DNA from: Microbacter sp. GSS18
GTDB lineage: Bacteria; Actinomycetota; Actinomycetes; Actinomycetales; Microbacteriaceae
Direction: 5' to 3'
DNA length: 64,000 bases
NCBI GenBank assembly: GCA_029319145.1
Contig: CP119753.1
Span: 1,984,001 to 2,048,000 of the forward strand
Below the pieces are notes generated by a model. The model was not told where the DNA came from and did no database searches. It saw nothing but the letters and a program-made list of their open reading frames with translations. Positions 26,360 to 40,690 of the stretch are shown piece after piece; within the stretch, counting starts at the first letter, position 1, and the number at the start of each line of letters is the position of its first letter. Made by a program: the position numbers and the translations under genes.

Positions 26360-28270
26360 TCAGGCGGTGAGCGCGTCCGCGCGCTGAGCGACCATGCACC
26401 GGTCGAAGAACTCGCTGAGCTCGGCGGTCGCCGACAGCGGCAGCACCGTCGCGACGTACTGGTCGGGCCGCACGACCACGACCGCTCCCCGTCGATCGAT
26501 GCCGCGCTCGGCGAAGATGTCGGCGTCGGTCCACGCATTGGGCGCGCCCGCGTAGACCTTCTCCCAGTCGGTCAGCCCCAGCGGACCGGTCCGGGGCAGG
26601 AACACCGCGGGAACCCGCGTGATGTCGACATCCTCGAAGGGCTGCTGGTAGACCGCCTTCACATCGAAGACGGCGTCGACGTCGGCGCCGTCCGGCGTGA
26701 AGCGCGCCAGCGGAGACCCGGGCGAGGCCAGCCACTCGGCCCAGTCGGCGAGAGCCGATGCCTCGCCGGCGGCGGGCGCATCGGCGAAGGCGTAGATCCG
26801 CCACCGGCCGTCGGCCTTGGCGTGGTGCCCGAGGTGGACGACGTTGCCGTCGCACACGCGGACGACCTCGACGCTCTTGAAGCGCTTGCCGATCGGGAAG
26901 CCGTCGGCGAGGGCCTGGTGCTCACCGGCCGATTCGATCATCGACGGGCCGTACTGCGTCATGAAGCCGGACGGGAACTCGGCCGTGCCCAGGTAGAACG
27001 TCGCGAGCTCGTTCGGATCCGTGATCTCCTCGGGCTTGCGGGCCATGAGCGTCGACCACTCGCGGTCGAAGTCGATGAGCTGCTGCGCGACGGGCTGACG
27101 CTCCGCCGAGTACGTCGACAGCAGGGAGGCCGGGCTGAGGCCGGTGAGGACGTGCCCGAGCTTCCAGCCGAGATTGAAGCCGTCCTGCATCGAGACGTTC
27201 ATGCCCTGCCCCGCCTTGGCGCTGTGGGTGTGGCACGCATCGCCGGTGAGGAAGACGTGCGGTGCACGACCTTCGCCCTCGGGCACGTCGTCGAACTTGT
27301 CGGTGACGCGGTGCCCGACCTCGTAGACGCTGTGCCACGCGACCTCGCGCACGTCGAGCGTGTAGGGGTGCAGGATCTCGTTCGCCTTGCCGATGATCTG
27401 CTCGATCGAGGTCTTGCGCACGGCATGGTTGTCGTCGGCCGCGACCTCGCCCAGGTCGACGTAGATGCGGCTGAGGTACCCGCCCTCGCGGGGGATGTGC
27501 AGGATGTTCCCCGCCTCGGCGTTGATCGCGCACTTCGTGCGCCAGTCGGGGAAGTCGGTGTTGACCAGGACGTCCATGACACCCCACGCGTGCGCGGAGA
27601 TCCCGCCGATGTGCTTGCGGCCGATCGCCTCGCGAACGCCGCTGCGCGCGCCGTCCGACCCGACGACGTACGTGGCGCGGATCGTGCGCTCCTGGCCCGC
27701 GCGCTCACCGGTGGTGTGGCGCACGCGCACCTCGACCGGGCGCTCGCCGGACTCGTGGACGGTGAGGCCCAGGAACTCGACGCCGTAGTCGGGGCGGATG
27801 CGGCCCGGGCCGTTGGCGGCGGCCTCGGCGAAGTAGTCGAGCACGCGCGCCTGGTTGACGATGAGGTGCGGGAACTCGCTGATCTTCAGCGCGTAGTCCT
27901 CGGTGCGGGCCGTGCGGATGATGTTCTGCGGGTTCTCGGGATCGGGACCCCAGAAGTTCATGTAGGCGATGTTGTAGGCCTCGGCGACGATGCGCTCGGC
28001 GAAGCCGAACGCCTGGAACGTCTCCACACTGCGCGGCTGGATGCCGTCCGCCTGGCCGAGGACGAGCCGGCCGTCGCGCTTCTCGATGACCCGCGTCACC
28101 ACGTCGGGGAATTGCGACATCTGGGCCGCCAGGAGCATGCCCGCGGGGCCGGAGCCGACGATGAGCACGTCCATCTCGTCGGGAAGGTCGACGGGGCGGT
28201 CGATGCCGGTGCCCGCGGCGTCCTGCACACGGGGATCGGCGGACACGTAGCCGTGGTGGTGGAACTGCAT
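26360..28270 (-). CDS. FAD-dependent aromatic monooxygenase (phenol 2-monooxygenase / 3-hydroxybenzoate 4-monooxygenase type)
   Basis: A single-component flavoprotein hydroxylase of 636 residues, adding a hydroxyl to a phenolic ring with NAD(P)H and O2. FAD motifs: GSGPAG at residues 39-44, DG at 206-207 and GD at 343-344 (LTGDACHTHSAKAGQGMN). A thioredoxin-like C-terminal domain from about 460 is typical of this subgroup. Asp75 and His135 fall at the positions reported for the substrate pocket of 3-hydroxybenzoate 4-hydroxylase MobA, and Lys246 and Tyr270 sit one residue from its Lys247 and Tyr271. Context (HpaD, HpaE, HpaH, HpaI) makes a hydroxyphenylacetate the likelier substrate. ATG 28270 follows GAGGAGGAGA. 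Confidence 0.8.
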   Translation of the reverse strand: MQFHHHGYVSADPRVQDAAGTGIDRPVDLPDEMDVLIVGSGPAGMLLAAQMSQFPDVVTRVIEKRDGRLVLGQADGIQPRSVETFQAFGFAERIVAEAYNIAYMNFWGPDPENPQNIIRTARTEDYALKISEFPHLIVNQARVLDYFAEAAANGPGRIRPDYGVEFLGLTVHESGERPVEVRVRHTTGERAGQERTIRATYVVGSDGARSGVREAIGRKHIGGISAHAWGVMDVLVNTDFPDWRTKCAINAEAGNILHIPREGGYLSRIYVDLGEVAADDNHAVRKTSIEQIIGKANEILHPYTLDVREVAWHSVYEVGHRVTDKFDDVPEGEGRAPHVFLTGDACHTHSAKAGQGMNVSMQDGFNLGWKLGHVLTGLSPASLLSTYSAERQPVAQQLIDFDREWSTLMARKPEEITDPNELATFYLGTAEFPSGFMTQYGPSMIESAGEHQALADGFPIGKRFKSVEVVRVCDGNVVHLGHHAKADGRWRIYAFADAPAAGEASALADWAEWLASPGSPLARFTPDGADVDAVFDVKAVYQQPFEDVDITRVPAVFLPRTGPLGLTDWEKVYAGAPNAWTDADIFAERGIDRRGAVVVVRPDQYVATVLPLSATAELSEFFDRCMVAQRADALTA

Positions 28271-28335
28271 GGGTCTGTCTCCTCCTCGGACGCCGATGTC
28301 GAGGTCACGCTGCGACGTTGCTTGCGGCCGGTCAG

Positions 28336-28360
28336 GGTATGTTCTATATTCGAACATACC
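28336..28360. promoter_or_regulatory. Probable IclR operator, site 1
   Basis: A perfect 9-bp inverted repeat, GGTATGTTC (28336-28344) and GAACATACC (28352-28360) with 7 central bases, in the gap between the divergent monooxygenase and iclR genes. A second GTTC-N7-GAAC lies exactly 20 bp away. Confidence 0.65.
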
Positions 28361-29242: not shown

Positions 29243-30625
29243 TCAGGCCTTCGCGAGACCGCGGATCGGGCTCACGCTCTGCTCCTGCTCGTGGTCGGGG
29301 CCGAGCGGGATGCCGGTGCGGTCGCGCAGCAGCAGCGTCGCGACCAGGCCGACGAGCGTGGCGCCGGCGAGGTACCACGTGACGCCGGTGGTCGAGCCGG
29401 TCGACTGCACGATCGCCTGCGCGATGGTGGGGGCGAACGCGCCGCCGACGATCGCACCGATCGCGTACGAGATCGACACGCCCGAGAAGCGGATGGATGC
29501 CGGGAACAGCTCGCTGTAGAGCGCCGCCTGAGGACCGTAGGTGAACCCGAGACCGATGGCGAGGAACCCGAGCGCGAGGAAGATCAGTCCCACGTTGGCG
29601 GTGTTCACGAGCGGGAAGAGCGCGAAGACGCCGATCAGCTGCAGGACCCAGCCGATGATGTACGTCGTGCGGCGGCCGATGCGGTCGCTGATGAATCCGG
29701 CGAACCACGTCGAGACGAGCCAGACGACGGCGGAGCCCGTGACGGCCCACAGGATGTCATCGCGCGTGATGGCGACGGGGCCCTCGGGGTCGGTGGCGTA
29801 GCGCTGGATGTAGCCGCCGGTCGTCATGTAGCCGACGGCGTTGTTCCCGGCGAACACGAGGGCCGCCACGATGACGAGCACCGCGTGCTTCTTGAACAGC
29901 TGCACGATCGGCATCTTCGTCTGCTCCTTGCGCTCGGCGATCTCGGCGAACACCGGGCTCTCCTCGACGCGGCGGCGGACCCAGTAGCCCACCACGATCA
30001 GGACGAAGCTCAGCAGGAACGGCACGCGCCAGCCCCACTCGAGGAAGGCGTCGCCGGGGGCGATGAGCGCCATGAGGCCCATGATCCCGGAGGCCAGCAG
30101 CAGACCCAGCGGCACACCGATCTGCGGCGACGCCCCGAACAGGCCCCGCTTGGCCTTGGGCGCGTGCTCCACGGCCATGAGGACGGCGCCGCCCCACTCG
30201 CCGCCCGCCGAGATGCCCTGCAGGACACGCAGCAGCACGAGGAGGATCGGTGCGGCCATGCCGATGGCCGCGTACGTCGGCAGCACGCCGACGAGGGTCG
30301 TGGCGGCGCCCATCAGGATCAGCGTCAGCATCAGGACGACGCGGCGGCCGTACTTGTCGCCGTAGTGGCCGGCGAGGAAGGCCCCGAGCGGCCGGAAGAG
30401 GAAGCTGATGCCCACCGTGATGAACGACAGGATCTGCGCGAAGCCCTCGCCCGCGGGGGCGAAGAAGAGCTGGGCGAAGACCAGGCCGGCCGCGAAGGCG
30501 TAGATGAAGAAGTCGTACCACTCGACCGTGGTGCCGACGACCGTGGCGAAGACGACGCGACGACGGTCGGTCGTCGACGCGATGGTTCCGGTGGGAGTGA
30601 ATCCCTCGTGCTGTGGTGCGCTCAT
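29243..30625 (-). CDS. MHS-family major facilitator transporter (KgtP/ShiA-like)
   Basis: A 460-residue, twelve-helix proton symporter of the metabolite:H+ symporter family. Signatures: TVVGTTVEWYDFFIYAFAA at the first helix, FRPLGAFLAGHYGDKYGRR in the loop between helices 2 and 3, and LLRVLQGISAGGEWGGA in helix 4, all characteristic of MHS members that import organic and aromatic acids. The start ATG 30625 follows GAAGGAG; codons upstream in the same frame lie in the regulatory gap. It is divergent from the FAH-RraA gene, with one operator between them, so it is probably the uptake system of the aromatic substrate. Confidence 0.88.
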   Translation of the reverse strand: MSAPQHEGFTPTGTIASTTDRRRVVFATVVGTTVEWYDFFIYAFAAGLVFAQLFFAPAGEGFAQILSFITVGISFLFRPLGAFLAGHYGDKYGRRVVLMLTLILMGAATTLVGVLPTYAAIGMAAPILLVLLRVLQGISAGGEWGGAVLMAVEHAPKAKRGLFGASPQIGVPLGLLLASGIMGLMALIAPGDAFLEWGWRVPFLLSFVLIVVGYWVRRRVEESPVFAEIAERKEQTKMPIVQLFKKHAVLVIVAALVFAGNNAVGYMTTGGYIQRYATDPEGPVAITRDDILWAVTGSAVVWLVSTWFAGFISDRIGRRTTYIIGWVLQLIGVFALFPLVNTANVGLIFLALGFLAIGLGFTYGPQAALYSELFPASIRFSGVSISYAIGAIVGGAFAPTIAQAIVQSTGSTTGVTWYLAGATLVGLVATLLLRDRTGIPLGPDHEQEQSVSPIRGLAKA

Positions 30626-30704
30626 GCGCTTGACTCCTTCGTCCGTGGGTGTGACTGCGATGTCCGGCAGCGATCGTTTCTTGATGCTTGCCTCGATGTT
30701 CGGG

Positions 30705-30716
30705 ATCATATACGAT
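30705..30716. promoter_or_regulatory. Regulon operator, copy 3 (transporter/hpa operon gap)
   Basis: ATCATATACGAT, the gabD palindrome with one substitution and identical to the copy at 46512. It lies between the divergent transporter and catabolic operon starts. TTGATG at 30681-30686 is a plausible -35 for the plus-strand operon, which would put the operator on its -10 region. Confidence 0.7.
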
Positions 30717-30746
30717 TTCGAATACGACGCAAGAGCGAGGGAGCTC

Positions 30747-32240
30747 ATGACCATCGACACGACACCGGCGACCGCTTCGGATCAGCGATTCGCCGCACTG
30801 CCCGCCCGCCCCGGCAAGATCATCGCGGTGCACCTCAGCTACGTCTCGCGCGCCGAGCAGCGCGGGCGCCGCCCCGCCGATCCCTCGTACTTCTTCAAGC
30901 CGTCGAGCTCGCTCGCGGCATCGGGCGAGGTCATCGAGCGCCCCGCCGGCACCGAGCTGCTCGCGTTCGAGGGCGAGGTCGCCCTGGTCATCGGCGAGCC
31001 GGCGCGGAACGTCACCGTCGAGGACGCCTGGTCCCACGTCGCGTGGGTCACGGCCTCGAACGACTTCGGCCTGTACGACCTGCGTGCCAACGACCGCGGC
31101 TCGAACGTCCGCTCCAAGGGGCGCGACGGCTACACCCCGGTGGGCCCCGGCCTGATCGACGCGAGCATCGTCGACCCCGCCGCGCTGCGCGTGCGGACGT
31201 GGGTCAACGGCGAGATCGCGCAAGACGACACCACCGAGGAGCTCATCTTCCCGTTCGCGCAGATCATCGCCGACCTGGCGCAGCACTTCACACTCGAGAC
31301 CGGCGACGTCATCCTCACCGGAACCCCGGCGGGCTCGTCGGTCGTCGTCCCCGGCGACGTCGTCGAGGTGGAGGTCGACGCGCCCACGGCACCCGGTTCG
31401 CCCACGTCAGGGCGCCTCGTCACGACCGTCGCCGAGACGCCGGCTTCGTTCGACCCCGAGATCGGCTCGCTCCCGGACGTCGACGACACCCAGCGCGCCG
31501 AGGCGTGGGGTTCGCGCGAGGCCGCAGGGCTCCCCCCTGTGCGCCGCGGGATCTCCCCCGAGCTGCGTCAGAAGCTCGAGAAGGCCCCCGTCGCGGGGCT
31601 GTCGCAGCAGCTGCGCAAGCGGGGCCTGAACAACGTCTCGCTCGACGGCATCCGCCCCATGCATCCGGGCGCCAAGCTCGTCGGCACCGCCAAGACGCTG
31701 CGGTTCGTGCCGAACCGCGAGGACCTCTTCCGCTCGCACGGCGGCGGCTACAACGCGCAGAAGCGCGCGTTCGACGCCGTCGACGCCGGCGAGGTCATCG
31801 TCATCGAGGCCCGCGGCGAGCGCGGCTCGGGCACGCTCGGCGACGTCCTGGCGATCCGCGCCCACGCGCGCGGCGCCGCCGGCATCGTCACCGACGGCGG
31901 CGTGCGCGATCACGACGCCGTCGCCGCGGTCGGCATCCCCGTCTACTCCGCCGGAGCACACCCGGCGGTGCTCGGCCGCAAGCACGTGCCGTGGGACACC
32001 GACCTGACGATCGCGTGCGGCGGCGCCACCGTGCAGCCCGGCGACGTCATCGTCGGCGACGCCGACGGGGTCATCGTGATCCCGCCGGCCATCGCCGAGG
32101 AGGTCGCGGACGCTGCACTCGCGCAGGAGGACGAAGACGCCTGGATCGCCGCCAAGGTTGCGGAGGGGCATCCGGTCGGCGGCCTCTTCCCGATGAACGA
32201 CGAATGGCGCCGCCGCTACGACGAGGAGACCGGACGATGA
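30747..32240 (+). CDS. Fusion of fumarylacetoacetate hydrolase (HpaG-like) and RraA/pyruvate-aldolase domains
   Basis: A 497-residue two-domain enzyme. The N-terminal FAH domain (about 22-235) keeps the metal ligands Glu75, Glu77 and Asp106 (E-x-E and +29) and the lysine in SKGRDGYTPVGPG, as in HpaG/YcgM-type isomerase-decarboxylases. The C-terminal domain (about 275-480) is RraA-like and keeps the D-X20-R-D motif of class II pyruvate aldolases and oxaloacetate decarboxylases (Asp366, Arg387, Asp388, in TDGGVRD). E. coli HpaG has two FAH lobes. Here one lobe is replaced by an RraA domain, which could supply the decarboxylase step. GAGGGAGC precedes the ATG. Its stop overlaps gntR by ATGA. Confidence 0.85.
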   Translation: MTIDTTPATASDQRFAALPARPGKIIAVHLSYVSRAEQRGRRPADPSYFFKPSSSLAASGEVIERPAGTELLAFEGEVALVIGEPARNVTVEDAWSHVAWVTASNDFGLYDLRANDRGSNVRSKGRDGYTPVGPGLIDASIVDPAALRVRTWVNGEIAQDDTTEELIFPFAQIIADLAQHFTLETGDVILTGTPAGSSVVVPGDVVEVEVDAPTAPGSPTSGRLVTTVAETPASFDPEIGSLPDVDDTQRAEAWGSREAAGLPPVRRGISPELRQKLEKAPVAGLSQQLRKRGLNNVSLDGIRPMHPGAKLVGTAKTLRFVPNREDLFRSHGGGYNAQKRAFDAVDAGEVIVIEARGERGSGTLGDVLAIRAHARGAAGIVTDGGVRDHDAVAAVGIPVYSAGAHPAVLGRKHVPWDTDLTIACGGATVQPGDVIVGDADGVIVIPPAIAEEVADAALAQEDEDAWIAAKVAEGHPVGGLFPMNDEWRRRYDEETGR

Positions 32241-32917
32241 GCGGGCAGACCGTGGGCACCACGGCGTCGAGCAAGTCCGAGCTCGCATATGCCTGGATCC
32301 GTGAGCGGATCGGGCGCAGCGAGTACGGACCGGGCTACCGTCTGGTGCTCGGCACCATCGCCGACGCGCTCGACATGAGCGTCGTCCCGGTGCGCGAGGC
32401 GGTCAGGCGCCTCGAGGCCGAGGGCCTGGTGACCTTCGAGCGCAACGTCGGCGCGCGCGTCGCCGTGATCGACGAGAGCGAGTACGTCTTCACGATGCAG
32501 ACGCTCGGCGTCGTCGAGGGCGCGGCCACGGCGCTGTCGGCGCCGAACCTCACAGGCGCCGACCTCGACCGCGCGCTCGAGGTGAATCGCCGCATGGAGC
32601 GGCTGCTCGACGACTTCGACGCGCACACCTTCACGCTGCTGAACCAGCAGTTCCACTCCGTGCTGTACGAGCCGTGCCCCAACCCGCACATCCTCGACCT
32701 CGTCCACCGCGGCTGGAACCGGCTGTCCGGCATCCGCGACTCGACGTTCGCGTTCGTCCCCGGACGCGCGCACCACTCGGTCGAGGAGCACGCCGAGATC
32801 GTCGACCTCATCCGCTCGCACGCCGACCCCCTCGAGATCGAGATGGCCGCCCGCCGCCACCGCTGGCGCACCATGGACGCCTTCCTCGCCTCTCGCCACC
32901 CCGACACCCACGCCTGA
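32237..32917 (+). CDS. GntR family regulator, FCD (FadR-like) subfamily
   Basis: A 226-residue regulator: a winged helix at about residues 12-75 (GYRLVLGTIADALDMSVVPVREAVRRLEAEGLVTFERN, residues about 33-70) and an all-helical FCD effector domain with the metal-binding pattern N/Q...H-x3-H (LNQQFHSVLYEPC, HHSVEEHAEIVD, AARRHRWRTMD). It is translationally coupled to the FAH-RraA gene and placed inside the operon. FCD regulators bind palindromes of the form T-N-GT-N-AC-N-A, which is the rule met by the four ATCRTATACGAT sites of this island. It is therefore the best candidate for the island repressor. Confidence 0.88.
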   Translation: MSGQTVGTTASSKSELAYAWIRERIGRSEYGPGYRLVLGTIADALDMSVVPVREAVRRLEAEGLVTFERNVGARVAVIDESEYVFTMQTLGVVEGAATALSAPNLTGADLDRALEVNRRMERLLDDFDAHTFTLLNQQFHSVLYEPCPNPHILDLVHRGWNRLSGIRDSTFAFVPGRAHHSVEEHAEIVDLIRSHADPLEIEMAARRHRWRTMDAFLASRHPDTHA

Positions 32918-32938: not shown

Positions 32939-34498
32939 ATGACCGACACCACCCTGGTCGCATCGCAGCGACACGTCCCCGACGACCTGCCCACCCGCAT
33001 CCAGCACTACATCGACGGAGAGTTCGTCGACTCGGTGGACGGCGACACGTTCGACGTGCTCGACCCGGTCTCGAACGAGACGTACCTGCAGGCCGCGGCC
33101 GGTAAGAAGGCCGACATCGACCTCGCCGTCGCCGCCGCCACGCGCGCCTTCACCGAGGGGCCGTGGCCCCGGATGCTGCCCCGCGAGCGCAGCCGGATCC
33201 TCCACCGCATCGCCGACATCGTCGAGTCGCGCGACGCGCGCCTGGCGGAGCTGGAATCCTTCGACTCGGGCCTGCCGATCACGCAGGCGCTCGGCCAGGC
33301 GCGCCGCGCCGCCGAGAACTTCCGCTTCTTCGCGGACCTGATCGTGGCGCAGGCCGACGACACCTACAAGGTGCCCGGCCGCCAGATCAACTACGTCAAC
33401 CGCAAGCCGATCGGCGTCGCCGGCCTCATCACGCCGTGGAACACGCCCTTCATGCTCGAGTCGTGGAAGCTGGGCCCGGCGCTGGCCACCGGCAACACCG
33501 TCGTCCTCAAGCCCGCCGAGTTCACGCCGCTGTCGGCTTCGCTGTGGGCGGGCATCTTCGAAGAGGCGGGTCTGCCGAAGGGCGTGTTCAACCTCGTGAA
33601 CGGTCTCGGCGAAGACGCCGGCGACGCGCTGGTGAAGCACCCGGACGTCCCGCTCATCTCGTTCACGGGCGAGAGCAGCACCGGCCAGCTCATCTTCGGC
33701 AACGCCGCCCCGTACCTCAAGGGCCTGTCGATGGAGCTCGGCGGCAAGAGCCCCGCCGTCGTGTTCGCCGACGCGGACCTCGACGCCGCGATCGATGCCA
33801 CCATCTTCGGCGTGTTCTCGCTGAACGGCGAGCGCTGCACCGCCGGCAGCCGCATCCTGGTCCACCGCGACGTCTACGACGAGTTCGTCGAGCGCTACGC
33901 CGCGCAGGCGAAGCGCGTCGTGGTCGGCTATCCGCACGACCCGAACACCGAGGTCGGCGCACTCGTGCATCCCGAGCACTACGAGAAGGTCATGAGCTAC
34001 GTCGAGATCGGCAAGACCGAGGGCCGCCTCGTCGCCGGCGGCGGCCGCCCCGCCGGCTTCGACGAGGGCAACTTCGTCGCCCCGACGGTGTTCGCCGACG
34101 TCTCGCCGGATGCGCGCATCTTCCAGGAGGAGATCTTCGGCCCGGTCGTGGCGATCACGCCGTTCGACACCGACGAAGAGGCACTGGCCCTGGCCAACAA
34201 AACCAAGTACGGCCTCGCCGCCTACATCTGGACCAACGACCTCAAGCGCGCCCACAACTTCGCGCAGTCGGTCGAGGCGGGCATGGTGTGGCTGAACTCG
34301 AACAACGTGCGCGACCTGCGCACGCCGTTCGGCGGAGTCAAGGCCTCGGGCCTGGGCCACGAGGGCGGCTACCGCTCGATCGACTTCTACACCGACCAGC
34401 AGTCGGTGCACATCACGCTGGGCAAGGTCCACAACCCGACCTTCGGCAAGCAGGAGCACCACGAGGCCACCGACCTCGACGACCCGGACCCCCGCTGA
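32939..34498 (+). CDS. hpaE: 5-carboxymethyl-2-hydroxymuconate semialdehyde dehydrogenase
   Basis: Oxidises the ring-cleavage product of homoprotocatechuate to the dicarboxylate with NAD. It is 519 residues, aldehyde dehydrogenase superfamily. Motifs: LITPWNTPFMLESWKLGPALA at the cofactor site, FTGESSTGQ, the general base in MELGGKSPAVVF and the catalytic cysteine in NGERCTAGSRI. The RQINYVNRKPIGV region is typical of HpaE. GAAGGAG lies ahead of the ATG. It sits 21 bp after gntR and 72 bp before hpaD, matching the order of hpa operons. Confidence 0.9.
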   Translation: MTDTTLVASQRHVPDDLPTRIQHYIDGEFVDSVDGDTFDVLDPVSNETYLQAAAGKKADIDLAVAAATRAFTEGPWPRMLPRERSRILHRIADIVESRDARLAELESFDSGLPITQALGQARRAAENFRFFADLIVAQADDTYKVPGRQINYVNRKPIGVAGLITPWNTPFMLESWKLGPALATGNTVVLKPAEFTPLSASLWAGIFEEAGLPKGVFNLVNGLGEDAGDALVKHPDVPLISFTGESSTGQLIFGNAAPYLKGLSMELGGKSPAVVFADADLDAAIDATIFGVFSLNGERCTAGSRILVHRDVYDEFVERYAAQAKRVVVGYPHDPNTEVGALVHPEHYEKVMSYVEIGKTEGRLVAGGGRPAGFDEGNFVAPTVFADVSPDARIFQEEIFGPVVAITPFDTDEEALALANKTKYGLAAYIWTNDLKRAHNFAQSVEAGMVWLNSNNVRDLRTPFGGVKASGLGHEGGYRSIDFYTDQQSVHITLGKVHNPTFGKQEHHEATDLDDPDPR

Positions 34499-34570: not shown

Positions 34571-35734
34571 ATGACCGACCGCACTGAAAAGACCCTGACC
34601 TCCTCCGGCTTCTACGTGAGCCAGGAGGCGCCCATCCACACCGACAATCCCATCCCGACGCCCTCCTCCCCCGCGCCCGACATCCTGCGCTGCGCCTACA
34701 TGGAGCTGGTCGTGACCGACCTGACGGTGTCGCGGAACTTCTACGTCGACGTCCTCGGCCTCTACGTCACCGAAGAGGACGACACCGCGGTCTACCTCCG
34801 CTCGACCGAGGAGTTCATCCACCACAACCTGGTGCTGCGTCAGGGCCCCGTCGCCGCGGTCGCGGCGTTCTCGTACCGCGTGCGCAGCGAGGCAGACCTC
34901 GACAAGGCGGTGGCGTTCTACACCGAGCTCGGCTGCCGCGTGGAGCGCAAGGCCGACGGCTTCACCAAGGGCATCGGCGACTCGGTGCGCGTCACCGACC
35001 CGCTGGGCTTCCCGTACGAGTTCTTCTACGCCACCGACCACGTCGAGCGCCTGTCGTGGCGGTACGACCTGCACACGCCCGGCGAGCTGGTGCGCCTGGA
35101 CCACTTCAACCAGGTGACCCCCGACGTCCCGCGCGCGACGAAGTTCATGCAGGACCTCGGCTTCCGCGTCACCGAGGACATCCAGGACGAGGCGGGCACC
35201 GTGTACGCCGCGTGGATGCGCCGCAAGCCCACCGTGCACGACACGGCGATGACCGGCGGCGACGGCCCGCGCATGCACCACGTCGCTTTCGCCACGCACG
35301 AGAAGCACAACATCCTCGCCATCTGCGACAAGCTGGGTGCCCTCCGCATGTCGGACCGCATCGAGCGCGGCCCCGGCCGCCACGGCGTATCGAACGCGTT
35401 CTACCTCTACCTGCGCGACCCCGACGGCCACCGCGTCGAGATCTACACGCAGGACTACTACACCGGCGACCCCGACAACCCGGTCGTCACGTGGGACGTC
35501 CACGACAACCAGCGCCGCGACTGGTGGGGCAACCCCGTCGTCCCGACCTGGTATACCGAGGCCTCGCTGGTGCTCGACCTCGACGGCAACCCGCAGCCGG
35601 TCGTCGCCCGCACCGACGACTCCGAGATGGCGGTGACCATCGGCGCCGACGGCTTCTCGTACACGCGCGCCGACGACACCGAGTCGATGCCCGACTGGAA
35701 GCTCGGCGAGTACAAGCTCGGCCACCAGCTGTAG
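34571..35734 (+). CDS. hpaD: Homoprotocatechuate (3,4-dihydroxyphenylacetate) 2,3-dioxygenase
   Basis: Extradiol ring-cleavage dioxygenase of the vicinal oxygen chelate fold, 387 residues. Metal ligands His178 (RLDHFN), His237 (MHHVAF) and Glu290 (HRVEIYT) have spacings 59 and 53, identical to H155, H214 and E267 of the Brevibacterium fuscum enzyme. The other active-site residues also align with the same offset of 23: Trp215, His223, Arg266, His271 and Tyr280 correspond to W192, H200, R243, H248 and Y257. This makes the assignment strong. Fe(II) is the likely metal. Two large hairpins separate it from hpaH. Confidence 0.95.
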   Translation: MTDRTEKTLTSSGFYVSQEAPIHTDNPIPTPSSPAPDILRCAYMELVVTDLTVSRNFYVDVLGLYVTEEDDTAVYLRSTEEFIHHNLVLRQGPVAAVAAFSYRVRSEADLDKAVAFYTELGCRVERKADGFTKGIGDSVRVTDPLGFPYEFFYATDHVERLSWRYDLHTPGELVRLDHFNQVTPDVPRATKFMQDLGFRVTEDIQDEAGTVYAAWMRRKPTVHDTAMTGGDGPRMHHVAFATHEKHNILAICDKLGALRMSDRIERGPGRHGVSNAFYLYLRDPDGHRVEIYTQDYYTGDPDNPVVTWDVHDNQRRDWWGNPVVPTWYTEASLVLDLDGNPQPVVARTDDSEMAVTIGADGFSYTRADDTESMPDWKLGEYKLGHQL

Positions 35735-35924: not shown

Positions 35925-36710
35925 ATGCTGACACCCGAGCAGATCGCCGAGATCGCCGACGAGCTGGCCGAAGCGGACCGGAACCACAGCGTGATCCCGC
36001 GGATCACCGCCCGGTACCCCGAGGCCACGGTCGAGGACTCCTACGCGATCCAGGGCGTGTGGCGCGACAAGAACCTGGCCGCGGGGCGCCGCCTGGTGGG
36101 TCGCAAGATCGGCCTGACCTCGAAGGCGATGCAGCAGGCGACAGGCATCAGCGAGCCCGACTACGGCGTCATGTTCGACGACACCGTGTACCCGACGGGC
36201 GCCGAGATCCCCGTCGACCACTTCTCGAACGTGCGCATCGAGGTCGAGCTCGCGTTCGTCCTCAAGACGCCGCTCGAGGGCCCCGACTGCACGCTCGAGG
36301 ACGCGCTCGCCGCGATCGACTACGCGGTGCCCGCGCTCGAGGTGCTGAACTCCCACATCGAGCTCGAGGGTCGCACGATCGTCGACACCATCAGCGACAA
36401 CGCCGCATACGGCGCCATGGTCCTCGGCGATGTGCACCGCAGCCCGGACGAGGTCGACCTGCCGTGGGTGCCGGGCGTGCTCGCGCGCAACGGCGAGATC
36501 GAGGAGACCGGCGTCGCCGCCGGCGTGCTCGGGCACCCCGCGACGGGGGTCGCGTGGCTGGCGAACAAGTTCCACCAGCACGGCGCGCGTCTGGAGGCCG
36601 GGGAGATCATCCTGGCAGGCTCGTTCACGAGGCCGATGTGGGTCTCGCGCGGTGACACCGTGCACTGCGACTTCGGACCGATGGGAACCATCTCATGCCG
36701 CTTCGTCTGA
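35925..36710 (+). CDS. hpaH: 2-oxohept-3-enedioate (2-oxo-hepta-4-ene-1,7-dioate) hydratase
   Basis: Adds water to the C7 oxo-diacid before aldol cleavage; Mg-dependent, FAH-fold hydratase of the HpaH/MhpD family, 261 residues. Recognisable segments: VEDSYAIQGVWRDKNLAAG, GRKIGLTSKAMQQATGI, PDYGVMF, and the metal ligands in RIEVELAFVL (E-x-E). The start ATG 35925 follows GAAGAGGAAG. Its 3' end overlaps hpaI by 16 bases, so these two are translationally linked, as the consecutive enzymes of the pathway should be. Confidence 0.92.
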   Translation: MLTPEQIAEIADELAEADRNHSVIPRITARYPEATVEDSYAIQGVWRDKNLAAGRRLVGRKIGLTSKAMQQATGISEPDYGVMFDDTVYPTGAEIPVDHFSNVRIEVELAFVLKTPLEGPDCTLEDALAAIDYAVPALEVLNSHIELEGRTIVDTISDNAAYGAMVLGDVHRSPDEVDLPWVPGVLARNGEIEETGVAAGVLGHPATGVAWLANKFHQHGARLEAGEIILAGSFTRPMWVSRGDTVHCDFGPMGTISCRFV

Positions 36711-37498
36711 CCCCGACCTTCCGCGACGATCTCGCGAACACAGACCGGGCCCTCGCGGGCATGTGGGTGTGCACGGGCTCGCCGCTCGTCGCCGAGATCG
36801 CCGCCGGCTCGGGTCTGGACTGGCTGCTGATCGACATGGAGCACGCCCCCAACGGCCTGGAATCGGTGCTCGCGCAGCTGCAGGCCGTCGCCGCGTACCC
36901 GATCACGCCGCTGGTCCGCGTGCCCTCGAACGACCAGGTGCTGATCAAGCAGGTGCTGGACCTCGGCGCGCAGAACATCCTCGTGCCGATGGTGAACAGC
37001 GCCGAGGATGCCGAGGCCGCCGTCCAGGCCGTGCGGTATCCCCCGCGCGGGCGCCGCGGCGTCGGCTCGGCGCTCGGCCGCTCGGCCCGCTGGAACCGTG
37101 TCGACGGCTACCTCGCGGATGCCGACGCGCACGTGTCGCTGTTCGTGCAGGTCGAGACCGCCGCGGCCGTGACCGCCGCCGCGGAGATCGCGGCGGTCGA
37201 CGGCGTCGACGGCGTGTTCGTCGGCCCGAGCGACCTGGCCGCCTCGATGGGGCTGCTCGGCGCGCAGACGCATCCCGATGTCGTCGCCGCGGTCCGGGCG
37301 ACGTTCGACGCCGTCCGCGCCGCCGGCAAGCCCGTCGGCGTCAACGCCTTCGACCCGGCGACCGCAGACGCCTACGTCGAGGCCGGGGTCTCGTTCATCC
37401 TGGTCGGCGCCGATGTCGCGCTTCTCGCGCGCGGCTCCGAGGCTCTCGCGGCGCGCTTCATCCCCGAGGCCGACACCACGCGGCGCGCGGGGTACTGA
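36695..37498 (+). CDS. hpaI: 4-hydroxy-2-oxoheptanedioate aldolase
   Basis: Class II metal-dependent aldolase that splits 4-hydroxy-2-oxoheptanedioate to pyruvate and succinic semialdehyde. It is 267 residues, HpcH/HpaI family. Motifs: WVCTGSPLVAEIAAGSGLDW, LLIDMEHAPNGLES with the acid and base residues, VRVPSNDQVLIKQVLDLGAQ, the metal glutamate in VQVETAAAV and the aspartate in VGPSDLAASMG. It overlaps hpaH. An 11-bp-stem hairpin follows. Succinic semialdehyde is then handled by the gabD product of the same island. Confidence 0.93.
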   Translation: MPLRLTPTFRDDLANTDRALAGMWVCTGSPLVAEIAAGSGLDWLLIDMEHAPNGLESVLAQLQAVAAYPITPLVRVPSNDQVLIKQVLDLGAQNILVPMVNSAEDAEAAVQAVRYPPRGRRGVGSALGRSARWNRVDGYLADADAHVSLFVQVETAAAVTAAAEIAAVDGVDGVFVGPSDLAASMGLLGAQTHPDVVAAVRATFDAVRAAGKPVGVNAFDPATADAYVEAGVSFILVGADVALLARGSEALAARFIPEADTTRRAGY

Positions 37499-37554: not shown

Positions 37555-37691
37555 AGTCGTTCGCGCTGGGTCATCACCGGCGCGCTCACCGTCAAGCCCG
37601 AGCGGGGACGGCGGCGAAGAATAAGAGCGCCTGCGGCGCTGCGGCACGATCCGCAGCACCGGGAACAGCTTGCGAACAGAAAGAGACGCCG

Positions 37692-39119
37692 ATGTCCGAT
37701 TCCCCTTCCGTCCTCGACGAGGTCGAGGTCCTCGATCGCGTCCAGGCCCCCGCCGGAGAAGGCCGCGAGATCCTCGACGCCGCCACCCGCGAGGTGATCG
37801 GGCGTGCACCCGTGCACACCGTGGAGGACCTCGACGACGCCATCGCGCGCGCCAAGGCCGCCCAGCCGGCGTGGGAGGCCCTCGGCCACCCCGCCCGCCA
37901 GGAGCTGCTGCTGAAGGCGGCCGACGCGATCGACGCGAACGCCGAGGCCCTCGCGCGCATCCTCTCGCGCGAGCAGGGCAAGCCCCTCAACGGCCCGGGC
38001 GCCCGCTTCGAGGTCGGCGCGTGCTCGACATGGCTGCGCTCGGCGGCGAACACGCCGCTCGACCCCGAGGTGCTCGTCGACGACGAGTCCGGCCACGCGA
38101 CGCTCATCTACAAGGCGATCGGCGTCGTCGCGGCGATCGGCCCGTGGAACTGGCCGCTCATGATCGGCATCTGGCAGATCGGCCCGGCGCTGCGCATGGG
38201 TGACACCGTCGTGGTCAAACCGAGCGAGAACACGCCGCTGAGCGTGCTGGCGATGCTCGCGATCATGAACGAGGTGCTCCCCGCGGATGTCCTGATCGGC
38301 GTGTCGGGCGGGCGCGACGTCGGCGCGCGGCTGGCGGCGCACCCCGACATCGACAAGGTCATGTTCACCGGCTCGACGGCGACCGGCCGCAAGATCATCG
38401 AGGGCTCCGCCGGCAACCTCGCCCGCCTCACGCTCGAGCTCGGCGGCAACGACGCCGGCATCGTGCTGCCCAGCGCGGACCCGCAGGCGATCGCACAGGA
38501 TCTCTTCTGGGGCGCGTTCATCAACACCGGCCAGACGTGCGCGGCCCTCAAGCGCCTCTACGTGCACGACTCGATCTACGAGGACGTCATCGCCGCCCTC
38601 GCCGCCGTCGCGGAGCAGACGCCGATGGGCCCGGGGCTGGACGAGGACAACGTGCTCGGCCCGCTGCAGAATCCGCAGCAGTTCGACATCGTCAGCCGCC
38701 TGGTCGAGGATGCCAAGGCCAACGGCGGCCGCATCGTCACGGGCGGCGCGCCGGCGGCCGACCTCGGCGACCTCTTCTACCCGATCACGATCGTGGCCGA
38801 CGTCGCCGACGGCATCGCCCTCGTGGACGAGGAGCAGTTCGGTCCGGCCCTGCCCGTGGTCCGCTACACCGACGTCGAGGACGCCATCGCCAGCGCGAAC
38901 CGGCTCGACGTGGGCCTCGGCGCCTCGGTGTGGGCCGGCACGCGCGAGGAGGCGCTGTCTCTGGCGACCCGCATCCAGTCGGGCACCGTGTGGATCAACT
39001 CGCACGGCGGCCTGCACCCCCAGGTGCCCTTCGGCGGCGTGAAGTCGTCGGGATACGGCCTGGAGTTCGGGGCCGAAGGTCTCAAGGCGGTGGCCGTGCC
39101 GCAGATCATCAACGGCTGA
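37692..39119 (+). CDS. NAD-dependent aldehyde dehydrogenase
   Basis: A 475-residue aldehyde dehydrogenase. Cofactor and active-site elements: AIGPWNWPLMIGIWQIGPAL, FTGSTATGRK, the general base in TLELGGNDAG and the catalytic cysteine in NTGQTCAALKRL. The sequence is not of the HpaE or GabD type, so it likely oxidises an aldehyde feeding the pathway, for example one produced by the GMC oxidoreductase encoded just downstream. The hairpin between hpaI and this gene suggests separately tuned expression. The substrate is inferred only from position. Confidence 0.85.
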   Translation: MSDSPSVLDEVEVLDRVQAPAGEGREILDAATREVIGRAPVHTVEDLDDAIARAKAAQPAWEALGHPARQELLLKAADAIDANAEALARILSREQGKPLNGPGARFEVGACSTWLRSAANTPLDPEVLVDDESGHATLIYKAIGVVAAIGPWNWPLMIGIWQIGPALRMGDTVVVKPSENTPLSVLAMLAIMNEVLPADVLIGVSGGRDVGARLAAHPDIDKVMFTGSTATGRKIIEGSAGNLARLTLELGGNDAGIVLPSADPQAIAQDLFWGAFINTGQTCAALKRLYVHDSIYEDVIAALAAVAEQTPMGPGLDEDNVLGPLQNPQQFDIVSRLVEDAKANGGRIVTGGAPAADLGDLFYPITIVADVADGIALVDEEQFGPALPVVRYTDVEDAIASANRLDVGLGASVWAGTREEALSLATRIQSGTVWINSHGGLHPQVPFGGVKSSGYGLEFGAEGLKAVAVPQIING

Positions 39120-39145
39120 CACACTCCAGGACGAAGGGAACAACG

Positions 39146-40690
39146 ATGTCCATCAAGACAGCGATCGTCGTCGGCGCAGGCTCTGCGGGTGCGGTCGTCG
39201 CCCGCAGGCTTATCGACGCCGGCGTCGAGGTGACGCTGCTGGAAGCAGGCGGCGAAGACACCAATCCGGCGATCCACGACCCCGCCCGCATGGGCGAGCT
39301 GTGGCACAGCGCGGATGACTGGGACTACTACACGGTCCCCCAGGAGCACGCGGCCGGGCGCCGCCTGCACCTGCCCCGCGGCAAGGTGCTCGGCGGGTCC
39401 CACGCGCTCAACGCCATGATCTGGGTGCGGTGCCCTCCGGCCGACTACGACAACTGGGCAGCGCTCGGCAATGAGGGCTGGGCCTGGGACGACGTGCTAC
39501 CGGTGTACAAGGCGATCGAGGACTTTTCGGGCGGCGCGTCCGACCTCCACGGCGTCGGCGGCCCGCTTCCGGTCACCGACGACTACGAGCTCGCGCCGAT
39601 CCAGGCGTCGATCCTCGATGCGTGCGTCGAGGAGGGCCTCGAACGCAACCCTGACTACAACGGCGAGAGCATCGACGGCGCGTCGCAGCAGCAGGTGACC
39701 ATGAAGGACGGCGTCCGCGCCAACACCTGGACGACCTACCTCAAGCCCGTCCGCGATCGTCTGACGATCGTCACCGGCGCGCACGTCCACTCGGTCATCG
39801 TCGAGGACGGCACCGCCGTCGGCGTCCGCTACCGCGCCCAGGGCGAGGACACCGAGCTGCGCGCCGATGAGGTCGTCCTCGCCGCCGGCGCCCTGGACTC
39901 CCCCGCGATCCTGCTGCGCTCGGGCATCGGTCCGGCGGCGGAGCTCGAGGCCCTCGGCATCCCGGTGATCCTCGATGCGCCCGCGGTCGGCAAGAACCTG
40001 CACGACCACTTCCTGTCGCCGGTCATCTTCACCACGACCGCGAAGAAGGTGGGACCGCCCGCGCCGGGCACCTCGGTGACCCAGAGCCACCACTTCTGGA
40101 AGAGCCTGCCCGAACTCGAGGTGCCCGACACCCAGCCGATCCACTTCTCGGTGCCGATGTTCAACGACTACCTCGAGCCGATCATCGACGACGGGTTCTC
40201 GCTGATGGCGGGGATCGTCAGCCCCAAGAGCCGCGGCAGCGTGACGCTCTCGGGCCCGGGGCTGGACGACGAGCTGCTCATCGACCCCGCCACGATGGAG
40301 GACCCGGAGGACGTCCGCTCGATGGTCGCGTCGGTGGCCAAGTGCCGCTCGATCGGCCGTCAGCCGGCGCTCGCCGACGAATGGGGAGCCGTCGAGGTGT
40401 ACCCCGGCACCGACGTCTCGGACGACGAGCTGGAGGACTGGGTCCGCCGCACCGTGGTGACCTATCACCACCAGGTCGGCACGTGCCGCATGGGCGTCGA
40501 CGACGAGGCCGTGGTCGACCCGCGTCTGCGCGTGCGCGGCATCGACGGGCTGCGCGTCATCGACGCGTCGATCATGCCGCAGGTGACGACGGGCAACACG
40601 AACGCGCCGGCTGTGCTCATCGGCGAGCTCGGCGCGCGCTTCCTCATCGAGGATGCCGCGCTCGTGCCCGCGGCGGCGACGACCGCCTGA
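39146..40690 (+). CDS. GMC family oxidoreductase (choline/alcohol dehydrogenase-like)
   Basis: A 514-residue FAD enzyme. The ADP-binding motif is IVVGAGSAGAVVARRLIDAG near the N-terminus. GMC signatures follow: GKVLGGSHALNAMIWVR and GALDSPAILLRSGIG, with the C-terminal catalytic histidine region YHHQVGTCRMG and NTNAPAVLIGE. GMC enzymes oxidise alcohols such as choline, aryl alcohols or polyethylene glycol. Beside an aldehyde dehydrogenase it would turn an alcohol into an acid in two steps. In this island an arylethanol is attractive but unproven; choline to betaine is the standard alternative. A strong terminator follows. Confidence 0.87.
   Translation: MSIKTAIVVGAGSAGAVVARRLIDAGVEVTLLEAGGEDTNPAIHDPARMGELWHSADDWDYYTVPQEHAAGRRLHLPRGKVLGGSHALNAMIWVRCPPADYDNWAALGNEGWAWDDVLPVYKAIEDFSGGASDLHGVGGPLPVTDDYELAPIQASILDACVEEGLERNPDYNGESIDGASQQQVTMKDGVRANTWTTYLKPVRDRLTIVTGAHVHSVIVEDGTAVGVRYRAQGEDTELRADEVVLAAGALDSPAILLRSGIGPAAELEALGIPVILDAPAVGKNLHDHFLSPVIFTTTAKKVGPPAPGTSVTQSHHFWKSLPELEVPDTQPIHFSVPMFNDYLEPIIDDGFSLMAGIVSPKSRGSVTLSGPGLDDELLIDPATMEDPEDVRSMVASVAKCRSIGRQPALADEWGAVEVYPGTDVSDDELEDWVRRTVVTYHHQVGTCRMGVDDEAVVDPRLRVRGIDGLRVIDASIMPQVTTGNTNAPAVLIGELGARFLIEDAALVPAAATTA

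Follow-up and report, generated by a model that had tools for sequence, protein, structure and literature searches.

Three steps of the homoprotocatechuate meta-cleavage pathway lie between the enzymes HpaE and HpaH. HpaF isomerises 5-carboxymethyl-2-hydroxymuconate (CHM) to 5-oxopent-3-ene-1,2,5-tricarboxylate (OPET), and HpaG converts OPET to 2-hydroxyhepta-2,4-diene-1,7-dioate (HHDD) with loss of CO2, and HHDD to 2-oxohept-3-ene-1,7-dioate (OHED) (PMC12718150; this and the other papers cited by PMC number are drawn on in extract). In E. coli, HpaG (HpcE, PDB 1gtt) is an OPET decarboxylase/HHDD isomerase in which both domains are fumarylacetoacetate hydrolase (FAH) lobes. Acinetobacter baumannii has two FAH proteins, HpaG1 (HHDD isomerase, HHDDI) and HpaG2 (OPET decarboxylase, OPETD), as well as HpaF; the two active sites cooperate on the tri-acid, and formation of the complex boosts decarboxylation (PMC12718150). 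The window analysed here, 64,000 nucleotides of Microbacter sp. GSS18 (contig CP119753.1, positions 1,984,001 to 2,048,000), contains a homoprotocatechuate (hpa) operon in which the same pathway slot appears to be held by a single FAH domain fused to an RraA-like domain, with no HpaF. The FAH half carries the metal triad of the E. coli C-lobe, but the second domain is RraA rather than FAH, and the FAH half belongs to a separate clade. We propose that in actinobacteria the fusion catalyses the middle part of the pathway, from CHM to OHED, doing the work of both HpaF and HpaG, most likely with the FAH half as decarboxylase and the RraA half as isomerase; we consider this somewhat likelier to be true than false.

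The fusion reads as a single open frame from an ATG with no internal stop (Table 1). E75, E77, D106, K124, D366, R387, D388 and D440 are the same in all 220 of the sequences compared, which are the window protein, 119 database proteins, 80 named loci, 16 genome loci and four plasmid loci; many of these are close relatives and one sequence was entered twice (L055 is the same as L138), so that they do not amount to 220 independent observations. The initial annotation had named Glu75, Glu77 and Asp106 in the FAH half and a D-X20-R-D motif (Asp366, Arg387, Asp388) in the RraA half, and both sets of positions were correct. In the RraA fold the D-X20-R-D motif is that of class II pyruvate aldolases, and its presence within a PF03737 domain places the second half in the RraA superfamily, pyruvate-aldolase type. 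The RraA half also exceeds the cut-off of PRK08245, a model named ‘hypothetical protein’ (226 against 208 bits). Among six stand-alone RraA relatives the R-D pair is kept in all six and the first D, at the position of D366, in three. The best solved structure for the RraA half by sequence is 5x15, a ‘putative transferase’, and the sequence search found no solved structure spanning both halves.

The fusion belongs to an hpa operon: HpaD and HpaE lie on the same strand, score over their equivalog cut-offs, and end 3.5 kb past the fusion. HpaH and HpaI fall under their equivalog cut-offs, yet TIGR02312 and TIGR02311 are their best matches. This association is tight. When 246 actinomycete genomes, which are not phylogenetically independent, were scanned with the PRK12764 and HpaD models at cut-off, each model was found in 17 genomes, and these were the same 17. 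The probability of such a coincidence by chance is 10^-25.8 counted by genomes or 10^-12.4 counted by genera, with kinship ignored. The 17 genomes represent 9 of 103 genera, and in four of these genera (g2, g29, g45 and g72) other sampled members lack both fusion and HpaD. HpaE and HpaD adjoin the fusion in all 17 loci fetched, with a GntR match in 15 and HpaH and HpaI in 12. The 80 named loci, which are the best among the protein matches listed and are likewise not phylogenetically independent, have the same layout: where enough flanking sequence was available to be testable, HpaE (75/76), HpaD (71/72), HpaH (69/69) and HpaI (68/69) lie downstream of the fusion on the same strand, and in 72 of 78 a GntR gene separates the fusion from HpaE. 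(L065, whose fusion is cut by the contig start, contributes to these context counts but not to the trees or the tables of residues.) The suggestion that the fusion is tied to hpa operons is thus borne out.

In six loci (L050, L052, L062, L063, L064 and L090, Embleya) a DapA-family gene lies between the fusion and HpaE, and HpaH and HpaI were not matched there. The L062 copy scores 350 bits with TIGR02313 ‘HpaI-NOT-DapA’ (cut-off 396.7) and passes the general dapA model, while those of the other five loci are 66–90% identical to it. This gene may encode a one-protein hydratase-aldolase. The published hpaGLEDHI cluster of Corynebacterium aurimucosum has the same G-regulator-E-D-H-I order as the fusion operon; the 2010 description names hpaG as an OPET decarboxylase and puts hpaF at another chromosomal position (cauri_0890), and the extract mentions no fusion, unlike the window (PMC2830990). 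Comparing by that paper's gene list, not by sequence, we infer that the C. aurimucosum hpaG is a PRK12764 protein.

The two standard enzymes for the middle of the pathway were not found in this genome. No match to PF02962 (CHM isomerase, CHMI, the HpaF family) was found in the fusion itself or in the whole 4.03-Mb genome, and no match over cut-off to TIGR02305 (HpaG N-lobe) was found in the genome either. An E. coli hpa plasmid served as positive control and gave both over cut-off (CHMI 170 bits, N-lobe 302.6 bits). The genome has eight FAH matches and three RraA matches, the fusion being one of each, and none of the seven other FAH proteins matched reaches an HpaG cut-off; the operon's own HpaH was absent from the FAH search results, which may therefore omit distant FAH relatives. 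A complete hpaF and two-lobed hpaG elsewhere in the genome, which the initial annotation had named as evidence against its reading, were therefore not seen by these models. The HpaG N-lobe model was not exceeded in any of the 17 fusion genomes, nor in three other genomes searched alongside. A genome-wide CHMI match by Pfam was found in one of these 20, the fusion genome G208, where it is weak (39.9 bits) and on a different contig from both of that genome's fusion/hpa loci; the 14 control genomes gave no CHMI match.

At the level of loci, a hidden Markov model (HMM) of HpaF found no match in 101 fusion loci (at most 100 different ones, given the duplicate) and matched 14 of 15 non-fusion hpa loci, the miss being Deinococcus sp. 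NW-56. The HMM was built from 12 sequences that are all among the 14 hits, so that only L184 and L185 are independent hits; the 15 loci were hand-picked, and HpaF is named by annotation in 12 of the 13 that remain when L184 and L182 are set aside, L185 being one of the 13. The earlier remark that no separate HpaF is seen near the fusion therefore extends well beyond the window. Its further guess, that the fusion also covers the HpaF step, is probably right, given the lack of HpaF in nearly all of the 17 genomes and of the HpaG N-lobe in all of them.

Operons of other bacteria suggest what the fusion stands in for. Two-lobed HpaG with HpaF is found in E. coli, Pantoea and Erwinia; two separate FAH genes with HpaF in Pseudomonas (two records), Azotobacter and Providencia; and one FAH gene with HpaF in Ruegeria, two Agrobacterium, Aminobacter, Pannonibacter and Deinococcus psychrotolerans, the last with a FAH protein over the HpaG C-lobe cut-off. 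The premise of a two-lobed HpaG thus holds for the first group and fails as a general rule. The metal-site acids of the single FAH proteins are E-E-E in the five alphaproteobacterial operons and E-E-D in Deinococcus, and the seven one-FAH records (five alphaproteobacterial, two Deinococcus) hold no HpaG N-lobe over cut-off elsewhere on the records themselves. Since six operons have one FAH and HpaF, the smallest difference between them and the fusion is RraA for HpaF. The HpaD proteins of Pantoea (L176) and Erwinia (L187) are 75–77% identical to that of the window and stand beside two-lobed HpaG and HpaF, which implies that the same type of ring cleavage precedes either HpaF and FAH or the fusion alone. 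The actinobacterial-like HpaD within the otherwise enterobacterial hpa operons of L176 and L187 suggests gene transfer.

Of the enzyme genes that are constant neighbours of HpaE and HpaD, the fusion alone lacks a place in the pathway, and it most likely carries out all three steps. The segment from CHM to OHED, which is read from gene context as a whole, is probably its task. On this proposal, CHM produced by HpaE would be isomerised, would lose CO2 and would be isomerised a second time to OHED, all by the fusion, after which OHED would be cleaved by HpaH and HpaI or by the DapA-type aldolase. Decarboxylation would take place at the E-E-D metal site of the FAH half, as it is thought to do in the HpaG C-lobe; the D-X20-R-D enolate site of the RraA half would perform the enol-keto isomerisation done by HpaF elsewhere; and the intermediate would be handed between the two tethered sites. 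This division of labour is favoured because the triad is shared with the C-lobe, which is the lobe assigned as the decarboxylase (PMC12718150), because one FAH with HpaF seems to be enough elsewhere, and because the missing gene is HpaF. If the fusion does have this role, we would expect this split in a little under one half of cases.

Several points weigh against the proposal. The first group bears on whether RraA and the loss of HpaF are connected. The same HpaF HMM finds nothing in 15 FAH-only loci (described below), in which RraA is likewise unmatched; the lack of HpaF thus need not stem from RraA, and the link is weakened. All fusion loci seen are actinobacterial, and the anticorrelation with HpaF may represent one historical event. 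HpaF may also be partly dispensable: CHM isomerises spontaneously, according to earlier E. coli work cited in PMC12718150, and OPETD and HHDDI work without CHMI, only more slowly (PMC12718150). The second group concerns the pairing of fusion and HpaD, which has two near misses and one exception. Genome G142 lacks the fusion, yet its best HpaD-like match, at 294.6 bits, is only just under the cut-off of 321.4; in G117 an additional HpaD passes the cut-off (330.8 bits) on a different contig from its fusion. The exception is L157 (Streptomyces sp. SID10853), which keeps fusion, HpaH and HpaI with no HpaE or HpaD match. Thirdly, A. baumannii OPETD needed its FAH partner for good decarboxylation, and was faster with HpaF (PMC12718150), with which one FAH being enough fits less readily. 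The physical coupling of two sites seen in that two-protein decarboxylation, as in the fusion, would suit either assignment of the two halves. No assay, structure or mutant of the PRK12764 family turned up in the literature.

The remaining points against the favoured split also support its reverse, in which the role is the same and the RraA half is the OPET decarboxylase, acting through a metal-held dienolate, while the FAH half is the CHM and/or HHDD isomerase. FAHD enzymes with the metal triad are mainly enol-keto tautomerases in which decarboxylation is a trace activity, the ratio of oxaloacetate tautomerase to decarboxylase being about 2x10^4 (PMC10825186). Conversely, in HMG/CHA aldolase, which has the RraA fold, oxaloacetate decarboxylation passes through a pyruvate enolate that is stabilised by Arg-123, with Asp-124 as metal ligand (PMC5065237). 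This enzyme, LigK (PDB 3noj), matches the RraA half at 57.6 bits by sequence. In an alignment with the LigK encoded in the same genome, R387 and D388 fall on its R-D pair, which we infer to be the equivalent of Arg-123/Asp-124; that LigK differs in having Glu at the position of D366 and in serving another pathway. The reverse split would also account for HpaF not being needed. Against it, a single FAH appears to suffice for decarboxylation in the alphaproteobacterial and Deinococcus operons, where no RraA is annotated nearby on the plasmid stretches, and the HpaG C-lobe, with the same metal triad as the FAH half, is assigned as the decarboxylase (PMC12718150). We regard the reverse split as possible but doubtful; granted the role, we would give it a share of about one third. 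It comes close to the initial annotation, which pictured RraA as the decarboxylase replacing an HpaG lobe: the tie to hpa operons and the lack of HpaF and HpaG are in keeping with that picture, and the trees described below are not, as far as a lobe swap is concerned.

It is improbable that the RraA half has a structural or regulatory role only, with the FAH half doing all the chemistry and CHM isomerising spontaneously. In its favour, single FAH proteins without RraA are found in other operons, and CHM isomerises spontaneously, as noted above. However, D366, R387 and D388 are invariant throughout the 220 aligned sequences, whereas D366 is replaced in three of the six stand-alone RraA relatives, and the models for the regulator of RNase E lie far out of reach (TIGR02998, 22.1 against 241.25 bits; PRK09372, 50.6 against 136 bits), so that identification of the RraA half as that regulator is rejected. 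We reject as very improbable indeed a role for the RraA half as the aldolase of the last carbon–carbon cleavage, like LigK in the protocatechuate 4,5-pathway: its motif would suit such a role (for related text see PMC5065237), but it scores 94 bits with the LigK model TIGR02798 (cut-off 304.5), and a dedicated aldolase gene stands beside the fusion, being HpaI in 12 of the 17 loci and in 68 of the 69 testable named loci, and DapA-type in the other five and L090.

The origin of the FAH half was examined using trees of 48 and 53 sequences, midpoint rooted and with long branches flagged, which included three of the genome's seven other FAH proteins. The fusion FAH halves group together (support 100/99), the adjoining clade being made up of 15 FAH-only proteins of other actinobacterial clusters. 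HpaG1/N and HpaG2/C each form one clade and lie together across a supported branch (98/92 and 99/94) from the fusion FAH, so the FAH half is not nested within either HpaG lobe clade. The triad positions are E, E and D in the fusion (20/20), FAH-only (15/15) and HpaG2/C (6/6) sequences, and G, T/A and E/D in all six HpaG1/N sequences, where the E-E pair is absent. Against the E. coli lobes the FAH half scores 133.1 bits for the C-lobe and 65.5 for the N-lobe, and it reaches neither HpaG cut-off (TIGR02303 C-lobe, 156.4 against 276.4 bits; TIGR02305 N-lobe, 107 against 228.65 bits). The genome's seven other matched FAH proteins also score higher with the C-lobe than the N-lobe, so HpaG-lobe scores alone do not identify the FAH half. 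A swap of RraA for one lobe of an ancestral two-lobed HpaG gains no support from the trees or from the variety of HpaG arrangements. The claim that RraA took the place of one HpaG lobe is therefore unsupported: the FAH half lies outside both lobe clades, and the gene that is absent is HpaF.

A more detailed evolutionary version of the favoured reading would be that an RraA domain displaced the tautomerase-superfamily HpaF as CHM delta-isomerase and was joined to a FAH decarboxylase recruited from outside HpaG, so that a single chain catalyses all three steps from CHM to OHED. Taken whole, this is tentative and rather unlikely. If true, it would give RraA proteins a catalytic role, vinylogous enol-keto isomerisation, that is not assigned to them in the literature consulted. 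More broadly, the proposal would bring a non-homologous replacement into a textbook catabolic route and, according to how the halves share the work, new chemistry to the RraA fold. It would explain how these Gram-positive homoprotocatechuate pathways run without HpaF and HpaG.

The 15 FAH-only loci of the sister clade (L066–L080) carry an HpaE-like dehydrogenase on the same strand in 14 cases; L073 has only a weaker match on the opposite strand. By eye, a LigB-type extradiol dioxygenase lies between FAH and the HpaE-like gene in L066, L072, L075 and L079 (L066 alone was profile-scanned), and glutamine-synthetase-like, P450 or acetoacetate-decarboxylase-like genes surround some of the loci. Judged by their gene content, these are an uncharacterised ring-cleavage cluster.

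None of the loci fetched has an hpa operon with separate, adjacent FAH and RraA genes, an arrangement that would provide Rosetta-stone evidence. The stand-alone RraA loci L081–L086 have no HpaD, HpaE or FAH match, and L086 has a 35% HpaI-like match. The alphaproteobacterial stand-alone RraA loci L180 and L181 lie among other genes, the L181 Gemmobacter plasmid having HpaD about 45 kb away. Thioclava L184 has HpaD, HpaH, HpaI-like, one FAH adjoining HpaH, a second FAH further off and HpaF by HMM, with no annotated HpaE within the stretch read. Streptomyces L157, in which the fusion follows an HpaB-like protein (by eye) and a DUF3500 protein, has HpaH, HpaI, DUF3500, dienelactone-hydrolase, SDR and FAD-monooxygenase genes in common with Thioclava L184 (the L157 genes being partly named by eye); the gene beside HpaH is the fusion in L157 and a plain FAH in L184.

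The FAH-RraA architecture is already catalogued. The fusion matches the NCBIfam model PRK12764.1 (NF009399), ‘fumarylacetoacetate hydrolase family protein’, over residues 9–494, full length and over the curated cut-off. The model has a name without a function, and its entry gives no link to the hpa pathway, unlike the context described here. A protein search scored 7998 candidates, of which 7536 had E <= 1e-20 (FAH or RraA relatives of any kind), and both Pfam domains are present in all of the best 120 of these 7536. Several JGI names among the matches listed are ‘5-oxopent-3-ene-1,2,5-tricarboxylate decarboxylase / 2-hydroxyhepta-2,4-diene-1,7-dioate isomerase’, and the NCBI name of one listed match (P0103) is ‘5-carboxymethyl-2-hydroxymuconate delta-isomerase’. 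Some automatic names thus already hint at an HpaG or HpaF role, and this is not a categorically new system. Among the open-access papers listed, none described a FAH-RraA fusion in the homoprotocatechuate pathway, a regular lack of HpaF next to it, or an RraA half standing in for HpaF; this is not proof of absence. What is proposed is a function, simple to assay, for a large conserved actinobacterial family that bears only a generic name.

The features of the locus are collected in Table 1.

Table 1. Features in and around the hpa operon, with positions in the window
Feature	Position	Strand	Evidence
Flavin monooxygenase, phenol-2-monooxygenase type	26360..28357	-	NF006144 982.3 bits, over cut-off 560
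Divergent MFS transporter	29243..30760	-	Pfam match; GTG start as listed
FAH-RraA fusion protein, 497 aa, NCBIfam PRK12764 family	30747..32240	+	PRK12764.1 835.2 bits, cut-off 444
FAH domain, residues 24-228; metal-triad residues E75, E77, D106	30816..31430	+	Pfam PF01557 FAA_hydrolase 172.8 bits
RraA-like domain, residues 285-444; D366, R387, D388	31599..32078	+	Pfam PF03737 115.6 bits
GntR/FCD regulator, start overlaps fusion stop	32237..32917	+	Pfam match
HpaE	32939..34498	+	TIGR02299 652.8 bits, over cut-off 638.35
HpaD, 3,4-dihydroxyphenylacetate 2,3-dioxygenase, glyoxalase-fold (class I)	34571..35734	+	TIGR02295 428 bits, over cut-off 321.4; PF00903
HpaH-like 2-oxo-hept-4-ene-1,7-dioate hydratase	35925..36710	+	TIGR02312 341.8 bits, below cut-off 351.5
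HpaI-like 4-hydroxy-2-oxoheptanedioate aldolase	36695..37498	+	TIGR02311 310.1 bits, below cut-off 368.8
Second aldehyde dehydrogenase	37689..39119	+	PF00171; no NCBIfam cut-off reached among 25 matches listed

The MFS transporter is matched in 63 of the 80 named loci; its GTG start overlaps the start of the fusion by 14 bases, and the true start is probably further in. The phenol-2-monooxygenase-type flavoprotein is matched in 50 of the 80 (flanks of up to 7 kb), and may be the ring hydroxylase that makes homoprotocatechuate in place of HpaBC. The aldehyde dehydrogenase and a GMC oxidoreductase that follow HpaI (37689–40690, + strand) are matched in 6 and 2 of the 80 named loci respectively, the 7-kb flanks barely reaching that far. 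A second region of the genome, at 2.762–2.777 Mb (L012 and L013), contains four FAH genes and, at 2.771 Mb, an extradiol-dioxygenase-like match scoring 107.1 bits, and is probably another aromatic pathway.

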